In this document: in pieces, positions 5,112 through 51,499 of the stretch
How positions within the stretch are numbered: position 1 is the stretch's first letter
Layout: the number at the start of each line of letters is the position of its first letter
Assembly: GCF_016586355.1 (NCBI RefSeq)
Contig: NZ_BLYI01000014.1
Span: 1-56,721 of the forward strand
Direction of reading: 5' to 3'
From: Anaerostipes butyraticus
GTDB taxonomy: Bacteria > Bacillota > Clostridia > Lachnospirales > Lachnospiraceae
Length of the DNA stretch: 56,721 bases
Notes under the pieces: generated by a model
Told to the model about the DNA's origin: nothing
The model's database searches: none
What the model saw: the letters and a program-made list of their open reading frames with translations, nothing else
Translations under genes and position numbers: made by a program

Positions 5112-5597
5112 ATGGCAAATCCAATCGTTACGATTACAATGGAAAACGGCGATGTAATGAAGGCGGAATTATATCCGGATATCGCCCCGATTACAGTAGA
5201 AAATTTCGTAAATCTTGTAAAGGACGGTTTTTATGACGGACTTACATTCCATCGTGTGATCGAAGGCTTTATGATCCAGGGCGGGTGCCCGAACGGTGAC
5301 GGAACCGGCGGCCCAGGTCACACAATCAAAGGGGAATTTACAGGAAACGGCGTTCCAAATCATTTAAAACACACAGCCGGGGTTTTATCTATGGCTCGTT
5401 CTATGATGCCTGACTCCGCCGGATCTCAGTTCTTTATCATGCACAAAACTTCTCCGCATCTTGACGGACAGTATGCTGCTTTTGGAAAGATCATTGAGGG
5501 AATGGATGTTGTGAATAAGATTGCAGAAACACCAACGGATTATTCTGACAAACCTCTGACACCTCAGGTTATGAAGAGTGTTACTGTAGAAGAGTAA
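5112..5597 (+). CDS. Peptidyl-prolyl cis-trans isomerase, cyclophilin type
   Basis: Cytoplasmic cyclophilin catalysing cis-trans isomerisation of X-Pro bonds. The 161-residue protein has the full single-domain fold: FHRVIEGFMIQGG (catalytic Arg and the FxMxGG region), GVLSMAR, SAGSQFFI and HLDGQYAAFGKI. There is no signal peptide, so it should be cytosolic. AAAGGAAAG lies upstream of the ATG. A HAD phosphatase follows 30 bases downstream on the same strand and probably shares the transcript. Confidence 0.95.
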   Translation: MANPIVTITMENGDVMKAELYPDIAPITVENFVNLVKDGFYDGLTFHRVIEGFMIQGGCPNGDGTGGPGHTIKGEFTGNGVPNHLKHTAGVLSMARSMMPDSAGSQFFIMHKTSPHLDGQYAAFGKIIEGMDVVNKIAETPTDYSDKPLTPQVMKSVTVEE

Positions 5598-5627
5598 TTT
5601 CCATCTGATATACAAAGGAAAGTTGAT

Positions 5628-6431
5628 ATGAGTGTAAAATTAATTTTTGTTGATGTGGATGACACCCTGTACAGCAAACGGACCCGTCATGTACCGGATT
5701 CTGCCCGGGCAGCGCTTCAGGAAGCCCAAAGAAACGGCCATAAGATCTTTGTAAATACCGGCCGTCCTCTGGCATATTTTGAACAGGAAATCCTTGACAT
5801 TGGTTTTGACGGAATGATTTGTTCCAATGGTGTATATATTTTAATCGAAGACAAACTGATCTATCACAAGACGGTTCCGAAAGATGTGCAGAAAGCCGTG
5901 ATGGACGCCTGCGTCCGCCACCATATTTTTGGAACTCTGGAAGGAGAGAAATGTTCCTATTTTCGAAACCATGATGTAAACTTCCATCCTCATTATGGTT
6001 TTATGATCCAGGCCTTTGACCTGGCGCCGGATATGCCGCATGAATTTTCCTGGGATCATGCGGATACCTGCGAAAAGATCATTGTTTTCAGCGGAGAAGG
6101 CAGTGATATGCCAGGATTTCTGAAAGAACTGGATCGGTTAAATGATGTGCTTGATTATATCCGCATAACCGATGATCAGTATGAGATTCTTTTAAAAGGT
6201 CACAGCAAGGGAACCGGACTTTTGAATGCTGCACAGTATTATCACACTTCAGCAGCCAACTGCTATGCCTTTGGAGACAGCAATAATGATGCCGAAATGA
6301 TCAAAGCTGCCGGACACGGTATTGCCATGGGCAACGCCTGTAATGAACTAAAAGCGATTGCAGACTATGTTACCACGGATATTGATGAAGATGGTATCAT
6401 GAATGCTCTAAAGCATTTTGAGTTGATTTAA
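5628..6431 (+). CDS. Cof-type HAD-IIB family hydrolase
   Basis: Haloacid dehalogenase superfamily phosphatase of the Cof/IIB group, which act on sugar phosphates and similar small metabolites; the substrate cannot be read from sequence. The 267 residues show motif I DVDDTLYSK (nucleophile DxD), motif II in NTGRP, a C2-type cap, the conserved Lys in LLKGHSKGTGL, and motif IV GDSNNDAEMI. AAAGGAAAG precedes the ATG. It is the second gene after the cyclophilin and ends at a strong terminator. It is more distant from the three HAD paralogs at 46-51 kb than those are from one another. Confidence 0.92.
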   Translation: MSVKLIFVDVDDTLYSKRTRHVPDSARAALQEAQRNGHKIFVNTGRPLAYFEQEILDIGFDGMICSNGVYILIEDKLIYHKTVPKDVQKAVMDACVRHHIFGTLEGEKCSYFRNHDVNFHPHYGFMIQAFDLAPDMPHEFSWDHADTCEKIIVFSGEGSDMPGFLKELDRLNDVLDYIRITDDQYEILLKGHSKGTGLLNAAQYYHTSAANCYAFGDSNNDAEMIKAAGHGIAMGNACNELKAIADYVTTDIDEDGIMNALKHFELI

Positions 6432-6438
6432 TAACAGC

Positions 6439-6472
6439 AAGACCCGGAAATTCAAAAAATTTCCGGGTCTTT
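6439..6472 (+). terminator. Rho-independent terminator of the cyclophilin-HAD operon
   Basis: A perfect 14-bp stem (AAGACCCGGAAATT / AATTTCCGGGTCTT) with a 6-base loop is followed by TTTTCTTTT on the plus strand. It lies 8 bases past the HAD stop and between converging genes, so it may also shield the end of the yhgE transcript. Confidence 0.9.
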
Positions 6473-6497
6473 TTCTTTTCCTGCGATATCACTTTTA

Positions 6498-9167
6498 CTA
6501 TGCGGTCTCCAAAGTTCCACCGATCCTTTTCTTCATGCGGAACCGATAGAGAAGAATTGTTAAAGCCGTAAACACAATCAAAATTCCTGCAAACACAGCC
6601 ACATCCTGTCCGATTGCTCCATCCATGGAAAGCGTATGCCGGAATGCATGAACTGTGTAGGTAAACGGCATAAAGTTATGAAGGATTTTATAGAATTTTG
6701 GCGCCATGTCCAGCGGATAGGTTCCTGCCGCTGCTCCCAGCTGGAGCACCATAAATACCAGCACCAAATAACTTCCAATCCGATTAATGAACATTTCAAA
6801 GAAACAGATCATCGCCATAAATGCCATAGATGCAAGAATTGCCATTCCAAAGGTTTTTCCCACATAATCCGGCCGCATTCCATTGACTCCCATTAATACG
6901 CCTACCATAACGACCGCCTGTAAAACAGAGATGACTGCCATCACTCCGGCTTTGCTAAGCCACCACTGAAAACCATTTTTTACCTCTTCATTTTTTTCCA
7001 TTAAAGGATACATGACAGTAAAAGCGATACAAGCCACAAAAAGTCCTACAGACATCATATACGGTGCCATGGCATGACCATTGTTTTGAACATGAGAATA
7101 TTCAACATTCTCAGTTTTAACCGGCGCCGCCATCATCTCATTCGTTTTTTCACTGGTCTTTGTATGATTGATCTGATCTGCCCCGTCTTTTAGACTGTCA
7201 CTGAGTGTTTTGCTTCCATCCGCAAGTTTCGTAATCCCTGTTCCAAGTGTCTGGGAACCTGACGCCAGCTGGCCGGCTCCGCTGCTGATCTGTCCGGCTC
7301 CGGACGATAACTGGGCAGCACCGCTGTTCAGCGTCTGATTATTGGATATAAGAGTCTGCAGACCGCTTCCCAGAGAATTTGTTCCCTGATACATCTGATT
7401 CATACCGGAAATAAAAATCGGCAGGTTTCCGCTGACACGGGAAATTCCCTGATTCAGCTGTGTGGCTCCACTGTTTAAAGCACCAGAACGGCTCTGCAGT
7501 GTCCCCAGACCTGTATTTACCTGTGAAACACCAGAGATATATGTTTTCACGCCATTTTTCAGTCCATTGGTTCCATCAATGCCATTCTGGAGACTTTCAA
7601 TTCCCTTTTCCATAGTCTCAAGGCCCTGAATCAGACCCATATCAGAAGCCGTTGTTCCGTTCCGGTCAAGACCATTCTGGATTTTCTCCAATCCAGAGTA
7701 CATCTGACTGACAGCGGTTTCACTCTGAGGAAGCAGCTGAGCAGAAGACTTCGCCAGTGCTGCTGTCTGCTGCTTCAGCTGTGCGATCATCTCGTCAGAA
7801 GATGTATTTTTTAAATTGTCATCTTCTGTATCCTTTGCGGAAGCATAAACTGCATCCACATCATTTTTCACATCACCTGCTGCTGTCTCGACCTCTCCAA
7901 TTTCTTCCATCAGCTGATTCTGCTCCTCTTCCGAAAGGCTTTCAAAAACAGAAGATTGTTTTAACTGACGGATTTTCTCCTGAAGCTGTGCAGTATCTGT
8001 TTTGGCCGAAGCCGCCTGCTGTGCTGTCTTTTCATTCTGACCGCTTTCAGATGTACTTTTACCTGCGGAGTCTGCCTGTGAAACCGCCTGGTTCAATGCC
8101 TGGATTCCCTGGTTTAGCTGTTCCATTCCCTTAGTCAGCTGATCAATCTGTGACTGTGACGGCATAGTCTTATCAATCTGAGATGACATTTCCTGCGCTC
8201 CGTTTAAAACCTGACTTGCTGCCGTTTTAAGCTCCTTTGTGCCGGAAGAAAGAGCCTGAACTCCCTGGTTTAGCTGACCGCTTCCTGCAGCGATCGTTCC
8301 GGTTCCTGCAGCCGCCTGACTAACTCCTGCAGTATACTGAGAAATTCCAGAAGCCAGAGATTTAGAACCATCCTGGAGCTGTCCTGCACCCTTTTGCAGA
8401 GAAGCAGCCCCATCCTTCAGGCTGACAGCACCGGATTCCAGCTGCGCCGCTCCTGACGCTGCCGCCTCTGTACCGTTCGTATACTGCTTTAATCCAACTT
8501 TCAGAGTCTCCGCTCCATTTTGAAATACCAGAGAACTGGACGATAATTTTTCCAGATTCTTCTCAATTTCTGTGTTTCCGTCACTCAGAGCCTGGGTGCC
8601 GTCTTTTATCTGTTTGGCTCCATCTGCCGCCTGAGCCATTCCGCTGCCGGCTTTTTTGATTTGGGCGAAGATTGTCTGTGCATAAGTTTCTGTTACTTGT
8701 TCTGACACAGACTTCTCAATCTTTGCCATAGCACTTTCATCCATTTTGGAAGCAATATAATTGGTTCCAGGATTGGTCTTATATATCAGTTTCATCTGTT
8801 TTGGATTCTCATCCATCAGCGTTGCCGCATTTTTCGAAAAATCTTTTGGAATGGAAATGATCATATAATAGGTCCCATCTTTCAATCCATCTTCTGCTTT
8901 CTTATCGCTGACAAAATGGAAATCCAAAGAACCTGATTTTTTTAAATTATCTGCCAGAGCATCTCCCACTGCCAGTTCCTTTCCTTGATAGTTCGTTTTC
9001 TGATCATGGTTCACCACAGCTACGGGCAGCTCATCCACATCCCCATAAGGATCCCACATAGATCCAAGAAAAATAGATGTATAAACTGCCGGAATCGTAA
9101 TAATGGCCAGCAGAATCACGATCATCCATTTGTTTTTCATAATTTTCTGCCATTCCCGTTTCAGCAT
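6498..9167 (-). CDS. YhgE/Pip domain membrane protein (ABC-2 type)
   Basis: Large 889-residue membrane protein of the YhgE/Pip family (related to B. subtilis YhgE and phage infection protein). It has an N-terminal TM helix (residues 12-32), a long extracytoplasmic region and five to six TM helices in the last 200 residues that resemble an ABC-2 permease half. The external region is dominated by degenerate heptad-like repeats (SGAAQLESGA, GAGQLQDGS, SSGAGQISSGAGQ), typical of the family and predicted helical. The family role is uncertain; proposed roles include export of lipids or peptides and phage adsorption. AAGGGAAA serves as RBS. Two tandem palindromes lie between its near-consensus promoter and start, and a divergent Rrf2-type regulator is adjacent, so repression by that protein is likely. 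Confidence 0.93.
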   Translation of the reverse strand: MLKREWQKIMKNKWMIVILLAIITIPAVYTSIFLGSMWDPYGDVDELPVAVVNHDQKTNYQGKELAVGDALADNLKKSGSLDFHFVSDKKAEDGLKDGTYYMIISIPKDFSKNAATLMDENPKQMKLIYKTNPGTNYIASKMDESAMAKIEKSVSEQVTETYAQTIFAQIKKAGSGMAQAADGAKQIKDGTQALSDGNTEIEKNLEKLSSSSLVFQNGAETLKVGLKQYTNGTEAAASGAAQLESGAVSLKDGAASLQKGAGQLQDGSKSLASGISQYTAGVSQAAAGTGTIAAGSGQLNQGVQALSSGTKELKTAASQVLNGAQEMSSQIDKTMPSQSQIDQLTKGMEQLNQGIQALNQAVSQADSAGKSTSESGQNEKTAQQAASAKTDTAQLQEKIRQLKQSSVFESLSEEEQNQLMEEIGEVETAAGDVKNDVDAVYASAKDTEDDNLKNTSSDEMIAQLKQQTAALAKSSAQLLPQSETAVSQMYSGLEKIQNGLDRNGTTASDMGLIQGLETMEKGIESLQNGIDGTNGLKNGVKTYISGVSQVNTGLGTLQSRSGALNSGATQLNQGISRVSGNLPIFISGMNQMYQGTNSLGSGLQTLISNNQTLNSGAAQLSSGAGQISSGAGQLASGSQTLGTGITKLADGSKTLSDSLKDGADQINHTKTSEKTNEMMAAPVKTENVEYSHVQNNGHAMAPYMMSVGLFVACIAFTVMYPLMEKNEEVKNGFQWWLSKAGVMAVISVLQAVVMVGVLMGVNGMRPDYVGKTFGMAILASMAFMAMICFFEMFINRIGSYLVLVFMVLQLGAAAGTYPLDMAPKFYKILHNFMPFTYTVHAFRHTLSMDGAIGQDVAVFAGILIVFTALTILLYRFRMKKRIGGTLETA

Positions 9168-23360: not shown

Positions 23361-24164
23361 CTATTTTTCCATTGATATGACAAACTTTCTGACCATTTCA
23401 AAATCATCATTGCTTGTTATTTCGTAAACTTCTTTTTCTCCTGTTCCTATCGCAATAATCTCCTCTTCTGTCTGATAGTAAACAACCTTCATTTTCGCAA
23501 TTCTCTCAGTCTTTATTTCTTCTGCGTCATCCGGTATGCTGTAATCCGCAGTTCCCTGTTCATTTTCATAATGATCCACAGTAAAGATATAATAAATTCC
23601 GTTTTCTTTTTCATATTCGGCAGTGACAGAAACAACCTTTCCTTCATCTGTAATGGCATACAGCTGGCTGCGGGTGATGCCAGAACCTTCTTCTTTTGGA
23701 TAACGAAGATCCCAGGAACATTTTTCTTCTATTTCTCTCCATGACGACGCTTCTTTCTCCTGGTACTGTGTAACGTTTCCTTCTTCTATTTCTTTGTCAG
23801 CCGGATTGATTCTGTCCTGAATTTCAATCCGAAATTCCTGTACCTGCTGCCCCGCTTCCTTTATATAATGCAGAATGGAATTCCCGGTAGCCGCCTCACA
23901 GACTCCGTTGCCGCCGATTCCCACTGCAACCGCTGCCACTGCAGCTTTTACCAGCATCTCTTTTCGTCTGCGGTTTTCCTCTGCATGAATTTTTCCCAGC
24001 AGATTTTTGTAAAACTCATCCTTCTGAAACTGCTCTGGAAGGCGAATCGGGCAAATACGTTCGATCCATTCATCCAGCTGTGCCAGTTTCTCCTCATCAC
24101 TTCCACCCGGCCTCAAAAACTCCCGGATATATTCTTTTCCCAGGCTTTCCACCACTTTGTCCAT
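23361..24164 (-). CDS. Membrane anti-sigma-factor-like protein
   Basis: A 267-residue protein with a cytoplasmic N-terminal segment of about 65 residues, one membrane helix (about residues 70-88, VKAAVAAVAVGIGGNGVCEA) and an external domain. The external part (GKVVSVTAEYEKENGIYYIF, VVYYQTEEEIIAIGTGEKE) resembles DUF4367-type sensor domains. The size and the position 29 bases after the sigma gene identify it as the probable anti-sigma factor, although a ZAS zinc motif is absent. It would hold the sigma at the membrane until an external signal frees it. Confidence 0.7.
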   Translation of the reverse strand: MDKVVESLGKEYIREFLRPGGSDEEKLAQLDEWIERICPIRLPEQFQKDEFYKNLLGKIHAEENRRRKEMLVKAAVAAVAVGIGGNGVCEAATGNSILHYIKEAGQQVQEFRIEIQDRINPADKEIEEGNVTQYQEKEASSWREIEEKCSWDLRYPKEEGSGITRSQLYAITDEGKVVSVTAEYEKENGIYYIFTVDHYENEQGTADYSIPDDAEEIKTERIAKMKVVYYQTEEEIIAIGTGEKEVYEITSNDDFEMVRKFVISMEK

Positions 24165-24193: not shown

Positions 24194-24688
24194 CTAGCTA
24201 AAAATCAGACAAACTGCTATTCCTCTCCTGATCTTTTTAACCACCCGGTGGATCCTCATCTTTAATGCAGGCTTGCTGATCCTGTATTCCTGAGCCAGCT
24301 CATCCAGAGAGTACCCTTCCTCGTAATATCTTCGTATGAGTTTTAATTCTTTCTCTGTCAAAAACTTTCGGAGATCTTCATATTCATCCAGCAGTTTCTC
24401 TGGACTGACCGCTGTGTCTGCCTGATACTGAGATAATATCTCTTCTACGGCATGATTTCTTTCCAGTACATGATATGTTACATATTTGGCGGTCATTTTA
24501 ATCCAGCCCGTTGGATTCTCATGGCGCATGACTTCCGTAATCTTACGATACAAAATCAGATAAGTCTCCTGGAGGATATCTTCTACCATGGCCGCATCAT
24601 ACCAATAGAGTTTGCTGACATAGCGAAGGAGCTCATCGTATGTCTCTTCATACAATTTTTGAAAATACTCTTCCTTCTTCTTGCGCAT
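24194..24688 (-). CDS. ECF-type sigma-70 family sigma factor
   Basis: A 164-residue sigma factor with region 2 (YDELLRYVSKLYWYDAAMVE, DILQETYLILYRKI, GWIKMTAKYV) and region 4 helix-turn-helix (LTEKELKLIRRYYEEGYSLD, ELAQEYRISKPALKMRIHRV). No extra domain. An AAGGAGATAGGT RBS precedes the ATG. It is the first gene of the sigma / anti-sigma / secreted protein operon. It may recognise the CGTTAC-N17-GGATAT promoters of the adjacent island, but no such box precedes its own gene, so this is only a hypothesis. Confidence 0.9.
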   Translation of the reverse strand: MRKKKEEYFQKLYEETYDELLRYVSKLYWYDAAMVEDILQETYLILYRKITEVMRHENPTGWIKMTAKYVTYHVLERNHAVEEILSQYQADTAVSPEKLLDEYEDLRKFLTEKELKLIRRYYEEGYSLDELAQEYRISKPALKMRIHRVVKKIRRGIAVCLIFS

Positions 24689-38070: not shown

Positions 38071-38613
38071 TTATTCCTCTGTACTGTCTGCCCTGGCCGC
38101 AGCTTTATCGCCCTGCTTTAATGTGATATTATAATCATCCATATCTCCAGTAACCTTATAAAATGTCTTTTCCCCGGAATCATTTTCCAAGGTTTCATCT
38201 GTAATATTCAGCTGAATCGTTCCAACTGCTTTGCCATCGGCAAAGTCGTCTGTAATATCCGCAGCCCGTCTGCCGTCAATCATCAGATAAACTTTTCCGT
38301 CTTCCTGCACCAGCTCGGCTTCCTGCCCGGATTTATTGTTTAAATCAACTGCTGCGTCCAGCTTTTTTCCATTTTTGTCCTGAAAATGCACAACTGACTG
38401 TCTGACCCATGTTTTCCCTGTTGCAGCATAACAAATCCCGTTCGATAATGTGAAAACCATTGTCAGCACCGCTGCCAGCCCTGCGGCCCGGCAGATCCCC
38501 TGATTCCATTTTATCGGCCTTCTCTTCGCTTCCAGACGTTTTACTTTTTCCTTCAGTTTATCCGGAGCGTGAATCTCTTTGAACATTTCCTGTATGCGCC
38601 TCTCACTCTTCAC
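38071..38613 (-). CDS. Membrane anti-sigma-factor-like protein
   Basis: A 180-residue protein from GTG 38613 (GGGAGGCATGGACAA upstream). Cytoplasmic N-terminal part rich in Lys/Arg (residues 1-40), one membrane helix (AAGLAAVLTMVFTLSNGICY), then an external domain (VVHFQDKNGKKLDAAVDLNN, GKVYLMIDGRRAADITDDFA). It overlaps the sigma gene by 11 bases, which strongly supports an anti-sigma role. No zinc motif is visible. The external domain would be the sensor; the signal is unknown. Confidence 0.72.
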   Translation of the reverse strand: MKSERRIQEMFKEIHAPDKLKEKVKRLEAKRRPIKWNQGICRAAGLAAVLTMVFTLSNGICYAATGKTWVRQSVVHFQDKNGKKLDAAVDLNNKSGQEAELVQEDGKVYLMIDGRRAADITDDFADGKAVGTIQLNITDETLENDSGEKTFYKVTGDMDDYNITLKQGDKAAARADSTEE

Positions 38614-39073
38614 TTGTCCATGCCTCCCTTAATAACTTCCTTGCCCGGGTCAGCCTCGTTCTCACGGTGGCGTCCCTGATATGTAACAATTTCGCAATTT
38701 CTTTTGAAGAATACCCTTCATAATAAAACAGGTACACTACAATCCTGCATTTGCCAGGAAGGGCCATAACCGCTTCATATAGTTCTTTATTTTCTTCTGT
38801 TTGGAAGGCCGGTCCTTCCGTCATCTCAAGTGAATCGACCTTCTTATGCCAGAAGGATGAAACCATACGATTGCATTCATTTACACATACGCGGATCAGC
38901 CACCGGCGTATATGCTCCTCATCCCGAAAATTCACATTTTTCGTAAGCAGTTTCAAAAATGTCTGCTGTACAATATCATCTGCATCAGCCGGCGATTTTG
39001 TAAAACTCAGGGCGATTCTGTAAACAGTATCTATATATTTCGCAATGATTCCCTCGTACTCCTTACTGTCCAA
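38603..39073 (-). CDS. ECF-type sigma factor, TTG start
   Basis: A 156-residue ECF sigma: region 2 (EGIIAKYIDTVYRIALSFTK, SPADADDIVQQTFLKLLTKN, HIRRWLIRVCVNECNRM) and region 4 (LPGKCRIVVYLFYYEGYSSK, EIAKLLHIRDATVRTRLTRA). TTG 39073 is taken as start because GGGAAGGGGG lies 8 bases upstream and the protein then begins like other ECF factors (MDSKEYEG). The frame remains open to 39433, but that part is repeat DNA and does not look like a sigma domain. Overlaps its anti-sigma gene. Confidence 0.85.
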   Translation of the reverse strand: MDSKEYEGIIAKYIDTVYRIALSFTKSPADADDIVQQTFLKLLTKNVNFRDEEHIRRWLIRVCVNECNRMVSSFWHKKVDSLEMTEGPAFQTEENKELYEAVMALPGKCRIVVYLFYYEGYSSKEIAKLLHIRDATVRTRLTRARKLLREAWTSEE

Positions 39074-39304
39074 TCGAGGATCCCCCTTCCCAGTATATAT
39101 TCTTCTTGCGCGCAAATTCAGATTCATCTCCCGCAGGGCAGGAAACTCTCTATTCCCCCTCTTGAAAAGGCCTTCATTAAAAGAACACCTGAGGAAAGCA
39201 AAATGTGCGATGAAAAATAAAAAAACTTGCGAAGATACAGACTGTATAAGGCTGGAAACAAGACAAACTTCCTTGATTTCCTCCTCTCCTGACTTTTCTG
39301 CATC
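39074..39304. other. Leader region upstream of the sigma gene
   Basis: About 230 bases between the sigma start and the 200-bp-period repeats. It contains AGGGGGAATAG and CTGCCCTGCGGGAG purine-rich strings on the minus strand, and a weak promoter-like TATACT just before the RBS. No separate gene is supported. Confidence 0.4.
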
Positions 39305-39608
39305 ACAGGAGGAGTCTGCTTCCTCCTGGCTTGTATTTTTATCCTCTGGGAGGTCTTCCTCCACAAGATACCTCCTCCCCTCCTGGCTTTCCTGCATCAC
39401 AGGAGGAAGCTTCTTATCTCCCAGGACATCCAAAATCCCTGGTTTCTCCCCACAGGAGGAATTTCTCTAACCCTCAGAGCCTCCGAAATCCCTGGTCCCT
39501 CCTCCCAGGAGGAGCCTGCTTCCTCCTGGCTTGTATTTTTATCCCCTGGGAGGTCTTCCGCCACAAGATACCTCCTCCCCTCCTGGCTTTTTTGCATCAC
39601 AGGAGGAG
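39305..39608. repeat. Direct repeat with 200-bp period, rich in AGGAGG/CCTCC
   Basis: A 104-bp unit at 39305-39408 recurs at 39505-39608 with about five differences (shared landmarks: CTGCTTCCTCCTGGC, TTTTTATCC, CACAAGATACC, TGCATCACAGGAGGA). Between them a second small repeat occurs twice (AAATCCCTGGT then CAGGAGGA, near 39434 and 39485). Both strands are full of AGGAGG and CCTCC, so RNA from it would fold heavily. The 200-bp period is not a multiple of three, arguing against coding. Located upstream of the sigma gene and downstream of trmL. Confidence 0.85.
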
Positions 39609-46215: not shown

Positions 46216-47088
46216 ATGATTCAATTAATCGTCTCTGACCTGGACGGAACCCTGCTGAACGAAAACAAGCAGATGACACCACGGACAGCCGATGCAATCA
46301 AACAACTTCAGCAGAAAGGGATTCGTTTCCTTTTAAATACGGAACGGGAATATTTCGACGCAAAATCCGTACTGGATTCTGCGGGAATCTGTTGTGATAT
46401 GATCTGTTCCGGCGGAGCTTACACCATTTGTGAAAACGGGGACAGCAGCCATGCTGCTTACATTTCCCGGCATATGATTGACCAGATGCTTTCTTTATTT
46501 GGTAAATATCACGTATTTTTTGAAATTTACAGTACAAAAGGCCGCTGTATCCTGGGAACGCAGGAGGCCTATGAAACATATCTGACCGGAGAATATTTCC
46601 CATCCCTGCTGGAAGAGGATAAGAATTTTTCCATGACGCAGGAAAACTACGATCAAATCCTGTCAGAAACACATTTTTATGATACCGGCGACCTGCTTTT
46701 GGAAGATAATCCACAGATTCTGCGGATTATTTCCCGGTCCAATGATACCTGGAAGCTTGACCAGCTCCGCAATGAAATGCGTCACAGCATCCATGAACTG
46801 GCTGTCTCTGAAGATTCAGCATATTGTATCCAGGTTACTGCCATTGAGGCTCAAAAGGGAGCCGCCCTTCTGGCATATATGAGAGACCACCGGCTTTCCC
46901 TCAAGAATACCCTTATCATAGGAGACGGTCATGAAGACTATTCTATGCTGGGCCTCCCTTACATTAAAAGTGTCGCCATGGGAAACGCCATTGATGAAAT
47001 TAAGGAAATCTGCGAATATCAGACCAGCAGCAATGACGCATCCGGTGCCGCCGCGGTTTTTGAAATTCTTCTCTCCTCATTATCCTAG
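46216..47088 (+). CDS. Cof-type HAD-IIB family phosphatase (paralog 1)
   Basis: A 290-residue HAD phosphatase: motif I VSDLDGTLLN, an unusual motif II region LLNTEREYFD (Thr kept), cap domain, conserved Lys in IEAQKGAALL, motif IV GDGHEDYSMLGL. Closely related to the genes at 49612 and 50615 (shared AQKG.LL.Y and AMGNA/AMANA segments). AAAGGAGG precedes the ATG. Substrate unknown, likely a sugar phosphate or similar. It converges on the anti-sigma gene, with a bidirectional terminator between. Confidence 0.9.
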   Translation: MIQLIVSDLDGTLLNENKQMTPRTADAIKQLQQKGIRFLLNTEREYFDAKSVLDSAGICCDMICSGGAYTICENGDSSHAAYISRHMIDQMLSLFGKYHVFFEIYSTKGRCILGTQEAYETYLTGEYFPSLLEEDKNFSMTQENYDQILSETHFYDTGDLLLEDNPQILRIISRSNDTWKLDQLRNEMRHSIHELAVSEDSAYCIQVTAIEAQKGAALLAYMRDHRLSLKNTLIIGDGHEDYSMLGLPYIKSVAMGNAIDEIKEICEYQTSSNDASGAAAVFEILLSSLS

Positions 47089-47110: not shown

Positions 47111-47145
47111 AAAAAAAGCAGAGAACCGGCTTCTCTGCTTTTTTT
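47111..47145. terminator. Bidirectional terminator
   Basis: A7GCAGAGAA pairs perfectly with TTCTCTGCT7 around CCGGC, giving T tracts on both strands. It ends both the HAD gene (plus) and the anti-sigma gene (minus). Confidence 0.92.
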
Positions 47146-47163: not shown

Positions 47164-48024
47164 TTAATCGTCATCATCATCGTCGTCATCGTCGTCATCG
47201 TCGTCATCATCGTCGTCATCATCGTCGTCATCTGCCGTCGTCGTCGCCGGCGCACGGGTTGTTGTCTGAGGCCTGGATTCTGTTGATGCATCCTCTCTGC
47301 TTTCATCCAGAAGTTCCGTCAGTTCTTTCAGCGAAAGCTGAGTGAGATCCTCTATTTTAAGATTTTTATGTTCTTTCATTACCTTACGAATGAGCGTTAG
47401 TTTTCCCAATGAAATTCCATATTTCTCCGCAATTTCCTCTTCTTCTTCATTTTCTGACATTTCCTGGTCCGTCACATAGACAGCAATTCCTTTTTCATTA
47501 AGATATTCGCTGACCGCACTGTTCAGACGAATCCGGAGTTCTTCTGCTTTTTCATGATCCGGATGCTCCACAGACAATAAAATATGGTTTTCTAAATTTT
47601 CTTTTGACAGATATCCGTGTTCGATCATTTCATCCAGCATCTGCTCTACAACCTGATCCACCTCCCGGTTCTCATAATCAATATCTTCAAGGATTTCTTC
47701 TCCTTCATGATTGATCGCTTCCATTCGGATTACTCTGTTTTCTTTATTTAATACGATTTCAATACTTGGATTTACATCAAAATCAACAATTGAACTTGCT
47801 CTTCTCTGAAACCGCAGACTGAAAACCAGAAGTATGCACAGGCATATGCCTGCTGCTGCCGCCGCATAGCGCATCCAGACAGGTTTTTGTCCCCTTCCCT
47901 TTTCCTGCATGGTGATATCATCATGTTCCTTCATTTTCTGTACGTCTGCACGTTTTAATTCCTCAACGGACACAGAAGGGGCATCTTCTATCGCTCTGGA
48001 CAATCTTTCTTCTATTCTATTCAT
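47164..48024 (-). CDS. RsgI-like anti-sigma factor with poly-Asp tail
   Basis: A 286-residue protein: cytoplasmic N-terminal segment of about 50 residues, one membrane helix (YAAAAAGICLCILLVFSL), then the RsgI/periplasmic-type domain (SIVDFDVNPSIEIVLNKENR, VIRMEAINHEGEEIL) that in RsgI proteins follows the helix. A charged helical region (to about residue 240), a TTTRAPATTTA linker and 22 consecutive Asp at the very C terminus follow. Its start overlaps the sigma stop by 4 bases. By inference it holds the sigma factor inside, and the acidic tail outside could bind cations or other polycations as the signal. Confidence 0.85.
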   Translation of the reverse strand: MNRIEERLSRAIEDAPSVSVEELKRADVQKMKEHDDITMQEKGRGQKPVWMRYAAAAAGICLCILLVFSLRFQRRASSIVDFDVNPSIEIVLNKENRVIRMEAINHEGEEILEDIDYENREVDQVVEQMLDEMIEHGYLSKENLENHILLSVEHPDHEKAEELRIRLNSAVSEYLNEKGIAVYVTDQEMSENEEEEEIAEKYGISLGKLTLIRKVMKEHKNLKIEDLTQLSLKELTELLDESREDASTESRPQTTTRAPATTTADDDDDDDDDDDDDDDDDDDDDD

Positions 48025-48602
48025 TGTCCCACCACCTCCATTTCCGCAAGATATGTTCTTAATTTTTTCAGAGATCTTTTATATTTTGAAAGGACCGTTG
48101 ACAGTGGTATATTGAGAGAGCTGGCGATTTCTCTGTGTTTCAGTCCCGAAACCGCATGCAGCATGACGATCCGTCTTTCTTCTTCTGTCAGCCGGGTCAA
48201 TACTGTCTCCAGCACCATCCGGTCTCCTGTATTTTCCACGAAACTGAATTCATCCTGAAATTCCAGTTCGGAAAAGTCCCCGTCATGATATCTCGCATGA
48301 TGCCGAAGGCGATCCATAGCCAGATTTCTTGTTATGGTAAACATCCATGCCAGAGGCTTCCCCATGGACTTATATAAATGTGCCGCGCTTCGTATTTTCA
48401 GAAATGTATCACTGACGATATCCAGGGCATCCTCGTGGTGACGTACAATGGACAGGGCGTATGCGTATATCGTCTTTTCCGTCAATATATAAAGTTCCTC
48501 AAAAGCTGCCATATCGTCCTGTCCAATGCGTTGGAATAACCGTTCGTCTATTTTTAATTTTTTCTTTTTAAAATCGGATTCGAAACTCCATGCGATTATC
48601 AT
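48021..48602 (-). CDS. ECF-like sigma factor paired with the poly-Asp anti-sigma
   Basis: A 193-residue sigma factor: region 2 (DMAAFEELYILTEKTIYAYA, HHEDALDIVSDTFLKIRSAA, WMFTITRNLAMDRLRHHA) and region 4 (LTEEERRIVMLHAVSGLKHR, EIASSLNIPLSTVLSKYKRS). GGGAGAAAAAGT precedes the ATG. It is the first gene of the sigma-anti-sigma pair, and the Asp-rich exported protein is 144 bases upstream on the same strand. Although the anti-sigma is RsgI-like, this protein has ECF rather than SigI features. Confidence 0.9.
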   Translation of the reverse strand: MIIAWSFESDFKKKKLKIDERLFQRIGQDDMAAFEELYILTEKTIYAYALSIVRHHEDALDIVSDTFLKIRSAAHLYKSMGKPLAWMFTITRNLAMDRLRHHARYHDGDFSELEFQDEFSFVENTGDRMVLETVLTRLTEEERRIVMLHAVSGLKHREIASSLNIPLSTVLSKYKRSLKKLRTYLAEMEVVGQ

Positions 48603-48745
48603 ACTTTTTCTCCCGCTGTGTTTGTAAAATCATTCCTATTTTAGCATGAAGCCGGATGGAGTATTGTTAAATCTACGTGAAATATTTGTTATATTTATGA
48701 TAATTTCTTCTATTATATCATATTGCCATCTGCTCTTCATTATTT

Positions 48746-49324
48746 TCAGTCATCTCTGTCGTCGTCATCATCGTCGTCATCTTTTTCATAGCGGTCGTCA
48801 TCGTCATCATCATCGTCGTCTTTTTCATAGCGGTCATCGTCGTCCCAGTCGTCGTCATCATCATCGTCGTTGTCATCCCAGTCATCGTCTTTTTCATAGC
48901 GGTCGTCGTCATCCCAGTCGTCGTCATATACTGCTCTGGTTGTCTTTTTCCCTGCAGCCGCTTTTCTGTCATCGTCATCATCATCATCTTTTTCATAGCG
49001 GTCGTCATCATAAACATCGTCATTATCATCATTGTCATAACGGTCATCATCCCAGTCGTCATTGTCATCTGTCTCATAGCGGTCGTCATCATATCTGTCA
49101 TCTGCGTCATCTATATCATCCCGGTCATCATAATCATCGTCATTCTGTTTCTGTACCGCTGTCGTACCGGAACTGTTCGGTTCCTCTGTTCTTTTTTCCT
49201 GCTGCTGTTCCATTCTCTTTGTTCCGTCGTCATCTGCATTGACGCCTGAAAAATGTACGGCTCCGAACACGATACCTGCCAAAACTGCTGCCACTAAACA
49301 AACCTTCATAATTACTTTTCTCAT
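48746..49324 (-). CDS. Exported Asp-rich repeat protein
   Basis: A 192-residue protein from ATG 49324 (GGAG 9 bases upstream; the ATG at 49333 abuts it). A signal peptide or anchor (VIMKVCLVAAVLAGIVFGAV) precedes a region of about 130 residues that is over half Asp, built of repeats of the type DDRYEKDDDDDDDD and DDDWDDDDRYE, with a basic interruption KAAAGKKTTRAV. No folded domain is seen; extreme acidity suggests binding of Ca2+ or other cations. It precedes the sigma/poly-Asp anti-sigma pair and probably acts with it. Confidence 0.85.
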   Translation of the reverse strand: MRKVIMKVCLVAAVLAGIVFGAVHFSGVNADDDGTKRMEQQQEKRTEEPNSSGTTAVQKQNDDDYDDRDDIDDADDRYDDDRYETDDNDDWDDDRYDNDDNDDVYDDDRYEKDDDDDDDRKAAAGKKTTRAVYDDDWDDDDRYEKDDDWDDNDDDDDDDWDDDDRYEKDDDDDDDDDRYEKDDDDDDDDRDD

Positions 49325-49355
49325 ATTACTCATCTCCTTTTTTTCTGAAATTTAT

Positions 49356-49555
49356 CTGTTTTCATAATAGTAACGGGATTCCTGTGGGTTTTATTGCACT
49401 CATTTTAAAATTTTTTTATTTTTTTCTTTCTCCTTTCTTTTTCACCTTTTTGTCTGTTTTCATAATAGTAACGGAGCTGTTCTTCTTTTTATTGCATTCT
49501 TTTTTAAATTTTTTTATTTTTTCCGATATAACTCATTTTTTACATAATCGTCACG
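49356..49555. repeat. Tandem 98-bp repeat with three CGTTAC-type boxes
   Basis: The string CTGTTTTCATAATAGTAACG occurs at 49356 and again at 49454, each followed by a similar TTTTATTGCA and T-rich run. A third, degenerate box (CATAATCGTCACG) starts at 49543. Read on the minus strand, toward the Asp-rich gene, the boxes are CGTTACTATTATG (twice) and CGTGACGATTATG. They share GTAACG/CGTTAC with the promoters at 14.2 and 22.6 kb but lack the GGATAT partner. They are probably regulator or sigma contact sites. Confidence 0.7.
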
Positions 49556-49611
49556 AAAATACTCTATTTCGCGTGATACGATATCCCTACATTTTGGAAA
49601 GGAGAAGATAT

Positions 49612-50517
49612 ATGATTCGATTATTTGCTTCTGATATGGATGGAACTTTATTAAACAGTTCTGGGGTCATTTCCAGATACACGGCAGATTCCATCCGAAG
49701 ACTACAGACATGTGGAATTGAATTTATTGTAAATACAGGGCGCGATTATACAAGCGCAAAAAAAGAACTGGATGCTGCCGGTATTTCCTGTAATATGATC
49801 TGCTGCAGCGGAGCCTGCACCTACGATTCCTATGGAAATCCGAGCAATATTGCATCTCTGCCGAAAAGCACCGCAAAAAAAATACTCAATCTTTTTTTGC
49901 GGCATGGTGCTTTTGCAGATATTTATACTGAAATCGGAAAAACCTCCGTGGAAAACCAGTCCCGGTTTTTGAGCTACTACCACGAAGAAGTATTCCCTGC
50001 CCTGAAGAAAGAACATAAAATTTATTATCAGACTCCAAAAGATTTTCAGAAAATGATGTCTCAGGTGCATTTTTTTGAAAATGCCGACAGTCTGCTTGGC
50101 ACCCCGATTCCAATTTACAAAATTTCTACTACTTTTTCTGACCCGGAGAAAATTTCCAGTCTTCGCAAAGAGGTGGAAGCCATCGAAGGGCTGCATATTG
50201 CATCCACTTCGTCCACCAACCTGGAAATCACTCAGGAGAAAGCACAGAAAGGCTATGCCCTTCTCCAATACGCAAAACAAAGATCCATTGAACCTTCTGA
50301 AATTCTTGCCATCGGCGACAGCGAGAATGATTTCTCCATGCTTTCCCTTAATCTTGGAAGCACGGTTGCCATGGCAAATGCCGCGCCATCCATCAAAAGA
50401 ATCTGCCGGGCAGAAACTTTGTCCAATGATCAGGACGGTGTTGCTGTTTTAATGGAAGGACTCGTTACGGAACGATGTTTCTATGAGATTAACCGCCGTT
50501 ATGTATTCGGTCTTTAA
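49612..50517 (+). CDS. Cof-type HAD-IIB family phosphatase (paralog 2)
   Basis: A 301-residue HAD phosphatase starting at ATG 49612 (GGAAAGGAGAAGATAT upstream); the longer frame to 49384 runs through the T-rich repeat region and is not real. Motif I ASDMDGTLLN, motif II VNTGRDYTSA, Lys in TQEKAQKGYALL, motif IV GDSENDFSMLSL. About as similar to the gene at 50615 as to that at 46216. Substrate unknown. It is followed by paralog 3 after 97 bases that include a separate promoter. Confidence 0.9.
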   Translation: MIRLFASDMDGTLLNSSGVISRYTADSIRRLQTCGIEFIVNTGRDYTSAKKELDAAGISCNMICCSGACTYDSYGNPSNIASLPKSTAKKILNLFLRHGAFADIYTEIGKTSVENQSRFLSYYHEEVFPALKKEHKIYYQTPKDFQKMMSQVHFFENADSLLGTPIPIYKISTTFSDPEKISSLRKEVEAIEGLHIASTSSTNLEITQEKAQKGYALLQYAKQRSIEPSEILAIGDSENDFSMLSLNLGSTVAMANAAPSIKRICRAETLSNDQDGVAVLMEGLVTERCFYEINRRYVFGL

Positions 50518-50614: not shown

Positions 50615-51499
50615 ATGATACGTTTAGTTGCATCAGATTTAGACGGTACCCTGCTGGACAGTTACCGCAGGATTACCGAAGAAAATAGAGAAGCCATTGC
50701 CCGGCTTCAGGAAAATGATATCGAATTCATCATTAATACAGGAAGAGAATATCAGAACGTCCTGGATATCGCCGCAGAAGCCAATCTGAAATGCGGCATG
50801 ATCTGCAGCAATGGAGCCAGCGGCTACGATGAAAATGGAAATCTTTTATTCCAGCATTTTATTCCGATGGAACATGTAAAAGAGATTATCCGCATTTTCC
50901 ATCAGCTTGACTTTACCCCGAATCTTTTCTCCCAGTTTGGACGTCTTTCCATCCTGTCAGAAGAGAAACTGAGGGAATATACAAAAAATGTGATGATTCC
51001 TGCCATGCAGCTGAGCCATCCGAATTTTGTTTATACAGAAAATGCCTTGAATGATCTGGTTAAGAGAGTGATCTATATTGACGGTGAAGAAGCCCTCTAT
51101 CAGAGTGATCATAAAATCTTAAAGATCACAACCCATTCTCCAAAACCAGAGCGGCTCGCCGAGCTTCGGGAAGCGCTGAAAGAGGTTCCTGATCTGGCAA
51201 TCGCCAATACATCCATCGCCGATATTGAGATTACCTCTGTTCATGCCCAGAAAGGGATCGGTCTGATGGATTACGCAAAAACCAAAGGCTATCATCCGGA
51301 TGAAATCGTTGCTGTGGGAGACAGCGGAAATGATTATTCCATGCTTTCTCTCCCTGGTATTCATTCTGTGGCTATGGCAAACGCAACCGAGGAAATCCAA
51401 AATATCTGTGTTTACCGCACAAGAGATAATTCCAATGACGGTATTGCCTATATGATCCGCTGCATTCTGGCAGACAGAAATAACTTTGAACTTCGTTAA
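50615..51499 (+). CDS. Cof-type HAD-IIB family phosphatase (paralog 3)
   Basis: A 294-residue HAD phosphatase: motif I ASDLDGTLLDS, motif II INTGREYQNV, cap domain, Lys in SVHAQKGIGLMDYA, motif IV GDSGNDYSMLSL. AAGGAGG is 8 bases from the ATG. It is the last of three tandem paralogs on the plus strand interleaved with the poly-Asp sigma locus. Substrate unknown; Cof-type enzymes are usually promiscuous on sugar and cofactor phosphates. Confidence 0.92.
   Translation: MIRLVASDLDGTLLDSYRRITEENREAIARLQENDIEFIINTGREYQNVLDIAAEANLKCGMICSNGASGYDENGNLLFQHFIPMEHVKEIIRIFHQLDFTPNLFSQFGRLSILSEEKLREYTKNVMIPAMQLSHPNFVYTENALNDLVKRVIYIDGEEALYQSDHKILKITTHSPKPERLAELREALKEVPDLAIANTSIADIEITSVHAQKGIGLMDYAKTKGYHPDEIVAVGDSGNDYSMLSLPGIHSVAMANATEEIQNICVYRTRDNSNDGIAYMIRCILADRNNFELR

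Follow-up and report, generated by a model that had tools for sequence, protein, structure and literature searches.

Among the described systems, SigI-RsgI of Bacillus subtilis has much in common with a three-gene locus of Anaerostipes butyraticus that encodes an Asp-rich protein with a signal-peptide-like start (P0003), a sigma factor of the extracytoplasmic function (ECF) type (P0002) and an RsgI-like anti-sigma factor (P0001). The locus lies in the window, by which is meant the whole stretch of DNA analysed (56,721 nt, contig NZ_BLYI01000014.1 of assembly GCF_016586355.1). Both systems have a membrane anti-sigma factor with the RsgI_M fold and an Asn-Pro site. The extracellular region of B. 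subtilis RsgI is not known to contain a folded sensor, a feature shared with the tail of P0001. The present locus is unlike the B. subtilis system in its ECF sigma factor, the absence of RsgI_N, its tail of pure Asp and its apparently exported Asp-rich partner. RsgI of B. subtilis is described as being cleaved constitutively, the halves staying joined until the wall is damaged (PMC10202637), and the scheme given for RsgI in PMC12203970 proceeds through autocleavage, RseP and ClpXP.

RsgI1-RsgI9 of Clostridium thermocellum possess the same periplasmic domain (8hdj, 8hep, 8heq, 8her, 8u9o) but differ in having folded sugar-binding sensors and in acting with sigma-I, not an ECF sigma factor. According to the account of these systems in PMC4711584, the sensor of RsgI3 binds pectin and sigma-I3 drives pectin-degrading genes, that is, sensor and output share a ligand chemistry, as is proposed here. 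The sigma-I promoters of that account consist of AAA, a gap of 13-14 nt and CGWA, a layout resembled by the A-run, 13 nt and CGTTA of the present locus (AAA-N13-CGTTA), and sigma-I is autoregulated (PMC4711584).

With ECF pairs in general the locus shares a sigma factor with regions 2 and 4 and an overlapping single-pass anti-sigma factor, and it would probably be autoregulated like them; it is distinguished by the lack of a Pfam domain in the 50 cytoplasmic residues and by the RsgI-type outer domain. We have also identified loci with a SigI-type sigma factor (L132, L147, L151, L164 and others; loci are denoted by L and a number) in which an Asp-tailed RsgI-type anti-sigma factor stands beside an exported Asp-rich protein. 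They differ from the present locus in the class of the sigma factor and in the partner, which is a lipoprotein-like RsgI_M protein (also with PepSY) encoded downstream.

A term search of the open-licence literature returned no description of an ECF sigma factor with a bare Asp tail and a matched exported neighbour, which is weak evidence of absence. The same literature gave no match for polyaspartate with anti-sigma factors, for PepSY with RsgI and sigma factors or for ECF/anti-sigma groups of Lachnospiraceae, and a single cyanobacterial match, which is without RsgI, for aspartate-rich proteins with ECF and anti-sigma factors. The motif string TGCAATAAAA together with sigma factor matched papers that are unrelated by title. 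The RsgI-type switch is of a kind already known, and the combination of ECF sigma factor, bare Asp tail and matched neighbour appears to be new. New in the current analysis are also the promoter motif, the pairing of tail and neighbour within the sigma clade and the similar pairing beside SigI-type sigma factors.

We propose, with a probability of about 0.55, that the locus encodes an autoregulated switch of an ECF sigma factor and an RsgI-like anti-sigma factor, with a sensor tail and an exported output made of the same polyanion.

Organisation of the locus

The three genes are co-directional on the minus strand (47164-49333), in the order P0003, sigma factor P0002, anti-sigma factor P0001. 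The features are as follows.

49469..49496, minus strand: second copy of the promoter motif (copy 2), lying 98 bp upstream of the first
49371..49398, minus strand: promoter motif copy 1, TGCAATAAAA-N13-CGTTA, 65 nt ahead of the P0003 start
48746..49333, minus strand: P0003, Asp-rich protein of 195 residues with a signal-peptide-like start, probable output (from sequence and composition)
48021..48602, minus strand: P0002, ECF-type sigma factor of 193 residues (Pfam, NCBIfam)
47164..48024, minus strand: P0001, single-pass membrane anti-sigma factor of 286 residues (Pfam, structure model)
47767..47772, minus strand: codons of N85-P86, putative autocleavage site (solved RsgI chains start at the aligned Pro)
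47167..47232, minus strand: 22 Asp codons, 11 GAT and 11 GAC
47111..47145, minus strand: terminator-like hairpin of 15 pairs with a T-run, seen on both strands, 3' of P0001

P0002 matches the Pfam families Sigma70_r2 (E-value 1.7e-12) and Sigma70_r4_2 (1.5e-12) and exceeds the NCBIfam cut-off for sigma70-ECF; no SigI model is among the matches listed for it (25 of 108 NCBIfam matches). A sigma factor with regions 2 and 4 hence adjoins a membrane anti-sigma factor, as in ECF pairs. The four-base overlap of the two open reading frames (ORFs), reported in the initial annotation made from the sequence, agrees with the coordinates and with these domains. That annotation had placed the Asp-repeat gene next to the anti-sigma gene; the gene is present but lies upstream of the sigma gene on the same strand, separated from it by 143 bp. 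A single transcript of the three genes is plausible, since the minus strand shows no terminator-like site in the gap from P0003 to P0002 and a hairpin with T-runs follows the anti-sigma gene, being one of 6 terminator-like sites found against 2.2 expected. A scan for sigma-70 promoters was uninformative (7 found, 6.9 expected).

The anti-sigma factor and its acidic tail

P0001 is comprised of a cytoplasmic part (about residues 1-50), a transmembrane helix (50-74, from the structure model), an RsgI_M domain (78-213), a linker and 22 consecutive Asp residues. The assignment of residues 78-213 to RsgI_M, the RsgI central domain of Pfam (E-value 2.2e-31), bears out the RsgI-type external segment noticed earlier. 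The sensor had been described as a bare polyanion, which holds in so far as the acidic tail is without a folded sensor, but the external part also contains this domain. No Pfam domain was found in the cytoplasmic part of about 50 residues. RsgI_N (PF12791), the SigI-binding cytoplasmic domain, was not detected in P0001 at E-values up to 1 nor in the own genome (0/1), and B. subtilis was matched among 14 control genomes. Because RsgI_N is absent and the sigma factor is of the ECF type instead of SigI, P0001 is classed from its sequence as an RsgI-like anti-sigma factor and not as RsgI proper.

By sequence P0001 matches the solved RsgI periplasmic domains 8t9n (E-value 2.3e-10) and the five C. 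thermocellum entries given above, and all ten fold matches in the PDB at an E-value of 0.001 or below are RsgI periplasmic domains. Each match to one of the five C. thermocellum entries opens with residue 1 of the solved chain, aligned with P86 (alignments were inspected residue by residue for 8t9n, 8her and 8hep). The Asn-Pro site of P0001 is N85-P86, within DVN85-P86. An AlphaFold2 model from a three-sequence input (mean predicted local distance difference test score, pLDDT, 65; predicted template modelling score 0.44) places it in the turn that joins strand 78-83 to strand 87-92. Within RsgI_M, pLDDT averaged over blocks ranges from 56 to 91. Past residue 248 no structure is assigned by DSSP and the tail is unstructured in the model.

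For comparison, 140 regions were fetched. The first 120 together with the window contain 136 RsgI_M ORFs, 73 directly behind an ECF sigma factor, 33 behind a SigI-type sigma factor and 30 behind neither; with a second fetched set there are 88 ECF/RsgI_M loci in all. The motif x-x-N-P-x occurs in 118 of the 136 ORFs. Residues D35, I37, T38, Q40, D83, N85 and P86 are invariant in the 8 aligned anti-sigma factors of the 11-member sigma clade described below; of the three others, judged by eye, two (L232, L234) retain N-P and one (L242) carries N-A. Autocleavage of P0001 at N85-P86 is predicted from sequence and is treated here as putative.

The terminal run of 22 Asp, reported earlier and now confirmed, is encoded by mixed codons with no interrupting residue. 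In the 120 fetched loci and the window, 26 ORFs were found to be Asp-dense (at least 80 residues, with a 40-residue window of at least 45% Asp); these are 24 RsgI_M proteins, P0003 and one other protein, from which it follows that the placement of the Asp tracts is not due to chance, although the loci were chosen for RsgI_M and the figures describe placement in them and not a genome-wide rate. The tails of RsgI_M proteins vary widely and are rich in Asp, in His or in Glu, Pro and Thr. Among the proteins of L157, L166, L170, L173 and L175 the outer parts include cysteine-rich CxxCxG-like repeats, and that of L157 has a very long C-terminal extension (both by eye).

The Asp-rich partner

P0003 has 81 Asp among the 162 residues that follow residue 33, in repeats of the DDRYEKDDDD type, and a net charge of -67 (K, R, D and E counted). 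Its hydrophobic start, judged as signal-peptide-like by sequence and hydropathy and not by a signal-peptide predictor, suggests export. It matches no Pfam or NCBIfam family above cut-off. The Ca2+-binding nonapeptide of RTX proteins has the motif GGxGxDxUx. No repeats of this type are seen in the P0003 sequence by eye. A long His/Arg-rich ORF on the opposite strand (48646-49242, plus strand) is antisense to P0003, mirrors its GAY repeats and is very probably no gene.

Counterparts of P0003 in relatives fall into two arrangements. L080, L116, L133 and L232 share the order of the window, with the partner first, then the sigma factor and the Asp-tailed anti-sigma factor; the partner is an exported or membrane-anchored protein with RsgI_M and Asp repeats, and units of the DDRY(E/D) kind are seen by eye in P0003 and in the partner proteins encoded at L080, L133 and L232. 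In L233, L235, L236 and L237, which belong to another family of the order, the partner follows the sigma and anti-sigma genes and contains RsgI_M, PepSY-like repeats and an acidic tail (Pfam was run on the partners of L235, L236 and L237), with long poly-Asp in L236 and L237. P0003 represents a bare version of the partner, with a signal-like start and Asp repeats.

The promoter motif

A two-box motif, TGCRATAAAW-N13-BRTTA, was derived from 19 upstream regions. With the spacer of 13, a search of 141 loci (1,630,822 bases) gave 40 occurrences, 25 of them outside the loci from which the motif was derived. Spacers of 8 to 12 gave 0, 1, 1, 0 and 0 occurrences and those of 14 to 18 gave 1, 1, 0, 0 and 0, which is 4 in all, and 20 composition shuffles gave a mean of 0.3 with a maximum of 2. 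The two copies ahead of P0003 in the window, 98 bp apart, have a common 41-bp pattern that was found in none of 100 shuffles.

In the ECF/RsgI_M loci the strict motif stands 17 times ahead of the sigma factor and 11 times ahead of the adjacent exported ORF; in relatives it precedes the sigma factor, the exported partner or, as in L233, L235, L236 and L237, both. Wherever an ECF locus has an Asp-rich exported neighbour (ten loci), the motif stands ahead of that gene. It is strict in eight, namely the window, L116, L133, L233, L235, L236 (where the position is counted from the likely start of the partner gene), L237 and L238, and in L080 and L232 it has, by eye, G for the last A. Recognition of this promoter by P0002 is predicted from these sequence patterns. 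Genome-wide, 44 matches were found in 20 genomes with a related sigma factor.

The own genome has four matches, two at P0003, one at a PepSY lipoprotein and one without a gene (L252, contig C6), where no ORF of at least 70 residues starts within 260 nt. Among the matches with one mismatch (L256, L257, L258), ORFs were listed for L258 alone and nothing exported is seen there behind the motif. The PepSY lipoprotein (L255, 817-1446, minus strand; PepSY E-value 2.3e-11) has the motif 54 nt ahead of it and a strong ortholog in one of the 10 other genomes of the genus (G010, 59% identity), where the motif is kept. As PepSY is also fused into partners elsewhere, a link of this lipoprotein to the regulon is suggestive.

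Co-occurrence of tail and exported neighbour

A tail counted as an Asp tail if 30 residues in a row held 40% Asp, and a gene as a neighbour if it lay within 600 bp. An Asp-rich exported neighbour is found in 8 of 15 Asp-tailed ECF loci and in 2 of 73 untailed ones (Fisher 3.8e-6, a figure that, like the others of its kind, treats as independent loci that are related by descent). In a tree of 85 of the 88 sigma rows, with support from the Shimodaira-Hasegawa-like approximate likelihood ratio test (SH-aLRT) only, P0002 falls in a clade of 11 rows (support 98) with 8 Asp tails and 9 Asp-rich exported neighbours; all 8 tailed members also have the neighbour. The rest are L235, which has the neighbour and a tail just under the threshold, and L234 and L242, which by the thresholds used have neither. 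A smaller tree of 73 rows groups the window with L080, L116 and L133 as a set of four (support 95). The neighbour changes 4 times and the tail 8 times on the sigma tree, and a topology that unites all ten ECF loci having such a neighbour in a single clade is not rejected (approximately unbiased test, p 0.108).

Similar pairing is seen beside SigI-type sigma factors, with an Asp-rich exported neighbour in 5 of 9 Asp-tailed loci against 1 of 24 others (p 0.0028, kinship ignored). Eleven of these 33 loci have an RsgI_M-bearing neighbour, with a lipoprotein-like start in 10 of the 11. For the two of their sigma factors that were tested (L144, L148), SigI models match best, below the curated cut-offs. 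With His in place of Asp, exported His-rich neighbours occur in 14 of 26 His-tailed loci and 4 of 62 others, clustered on the tree and drawn from lists made by hydropathy alone that include unlikely ORFs; the phylogenetic pair test for His has 3 pairs on supported branches and no power. A paralogous pair of ECF sigma factor and RsgI_M protein with a His-rich tail is encoded in the own genome (L069, contig C35, about 5150-6738). The ORF ahead of it contains NGDGICDHC-like repeats and is rich in His at its end; L187 is similar.

From the promoter motif and the co-occurrence in relatives, P0003 belongs to the system and is probably its output, a role that the initial annotation had already considered. 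Its statement that no other system of this architecture was known is not supported as a claim of uniqueness, since 9 of the 11 clade members have an Asp-rich exported neighbour and SigI-type loci are similar. The co-occurrence of tail and neighbour that it suggested looking for is present in about half of the tailed ECF loci; of close relatives without both, which it regarded as telling against its idea, the clade has two among its 11 loci (L234, L242, by the thresholds used), 8 having both, and outside the clade 7 Asp-tailed ECF loci are without such a neighbour.

Proposed mechanism

In the proposed switch the RsgI_M domain would cut itself at N85-P86, the halves staying joined, and the acidic disordered tail would extend into the wall. 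The tail may be pulled, released or neutralised by its partner, for which a cationic ligand or a changed wall is the likeliest candidate. The outer fragment would then leave, a site-2 protease would cut the membrane stub and the sigma factor would be freed to transcribe P0003, the sigma gene and the anti-sigma gene from the tandem promoters. Exported P0003 could bind the partner of the tail, and the response would in this way take away its own stimulus; newly made anti-sigma factor would reset the switch. The idea that the sensor mirrors the output comes from the matched make-up, the shared motif, the recurrence of the pairing in two sigma classes and the parallel with RsgI3.

Several observations weigh against this proposal. 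The motif was partly read from the loci in which it was counted (15 of the 40 occurrences) and is strict in only 24 of the 88 ECF/RsgI_M loci. Set against its 44 matches in genomes with a related sigma factor are 16 in 20 genomes where P0002 has no close homolog, the reversed pattern giving 3 in the same 40 genomes. G010 keeps the PepSY ortholog and its motif yet is without P0002, for which reason another sigma factor may read this copy; as proof of the regulon the third copy was dropped and it is suggestive only. The Asn-Pro site is Asn-Ala in clade member L242. Among the 15 ECF loci with an Asp tail, 7 show no exported Asp-rich protein encoded within 600 bp, and the 8 loci with tail and neighbour are confined to one 11-row clade, so that independent events in the ECF lineage are few; the phylogenetic pair test for Asp, with 4 pairs on supported branches, has no power. 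Finally, P0003 is without the RsgI_M domain that 8 of the 9 other ECF neighbours have, the ninth being a copper-amine-oxidase-N-type protein (L238).

Alternative explanations

The alternative that survives best, though we consider it unlikely, is that the disordered tail serves as a general handle for sensing gaps or tension in the wall, the Asp being incidental, P0003 a wall-stress output and their likeness functionless. The disordered region of B. subtilis RsgI is reportedly replaceable by different disordered regions (work of Brunet in 2022). The wide variation in tail composition and the sister loci L070, L079 and L102, where the same domain carries other low-complexity tails with no Asp-rich neighbour, would suit such a handle, as would the response of B. 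subtilis RsgI to wall defects stated in PMC10202637. What it leaves aside is that the make-up of tail and neighbour matches, Asp in both ECF and SigI-type loci and His with His, with the caveat of shared descent.

Direct sensing of Ca2+ or other metals, of cationic peptides or of pH, with P0003 as a buffer, is likewise unlikely and slightly less probable. The polyanionic make-up is in keeping with it and the His-rich tails of the sister systems would also suit metals, but the unit is without a metal gene, P0003 lacks RTX-type repeats, and the present data do not tell one cation from another.

The RsgI_M-bearing neighbours, found in 8 of 10 ECF and 11 of 33 SigI-type loci and often with Asn-Pro, could indicate that the partner is a regulator and not a ligand binder, competing or swapping strands with the cleaved ectodomain of the anti-sigma factor, with P0003 as a reduced form of such a partner; P0003 without RsgI_M and the loss of the Asn-Pro motif in the L133 partner make this improbable. 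That both Asp tracts are functionless expanding codon repeats, as partly periodic GAY tracts and tail lengths that differ between relatives might suggest, is very improbable in view of the mixed GAT and GAC codons with no replaced residue in 22, the bias of acidic tracts towards RsgI_M proteins and the genes beside them (24 and 1 of 26) and the same pairing in two sigma classes.

Distribution and neighbouring genes

In a sample of 299 genomes from the bacterial family, RsgI_M occurs in 97. A sigma model built from four relatives has matches at E-values up to 1e-25 in 68 of 397 family genomes and in 39 of 392 genomes from the order, and a wider scan of named genomes revealed anti-sigma homologs in at least 2 relatives. 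Within the genus, P0002 is without a close homolog in all 10 other genomes (best E-value 1.3e-12 against 8.9e-125 for itself), and beyond the own locus the anti-sigma search gave four matches of 24-27% identity, spread over 4 of the 11 genomes. As these 10 genomes are without a close homolog of either protein, the module is patchy in its distribution.

VTC-, DUF4956- or CotH-like genes adjoin the Asp-tailed RsgI_M loci L101, L109 and L117 and the SigI-type loci L139, L144 and L148 (by eye); the VTC and DUF4956 genes of L101 and the CotH gene of L144 are confirmed by Pfam, and in L101 and L109 the motif lies ahead of the neighbouring gene group. A link to polyphosphate, considered from these neighbours, was set aside. 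VTC and CotH have no match in the own genome (0/1 each) and are therefore not regarded as part of the system here.

In the window the module is flanked by genes of HAD-type hydrolases (Pfam Hydrolase_3) at 46216-47088, 49384-50517 and 50615-51499, all on the plus strand. It occupies, in the opposite orientation, the interval between the first two; for 49384-50517 the start as listed is probably too far upstream. Other genes of the sigma-70 family are found at 24194-24688 and 38603-39433 (minus strand), and those downstream of them (23361-24164 and 38071-38613, minus strand), which have no Pfam match, could encode anti-sigma factors.

Implications

The proposed switch would extend RsgI-type sensing from SigI and folded sugar-binding sensors to ECF sigma factors and bare polyanion tails, and the promoter motif provides a sequence handle on the regulons. 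As a tentative generalisation, which we hold to be possible but on the whole unlikely, the tails of RsgI_M switches may share a low-complexity polymer, Asp or His, with an exported protein under control of the sigma factor, having arisen separately in the ECF and SigI lineages. The rule that the tail resembles the output is testable and might help to identify ligands for sigma systems not yet characterised. If it is true, the cell would gauge either the polymer that it secretes or the free stock of that polymer's partner, and adjust secretion accordingly.

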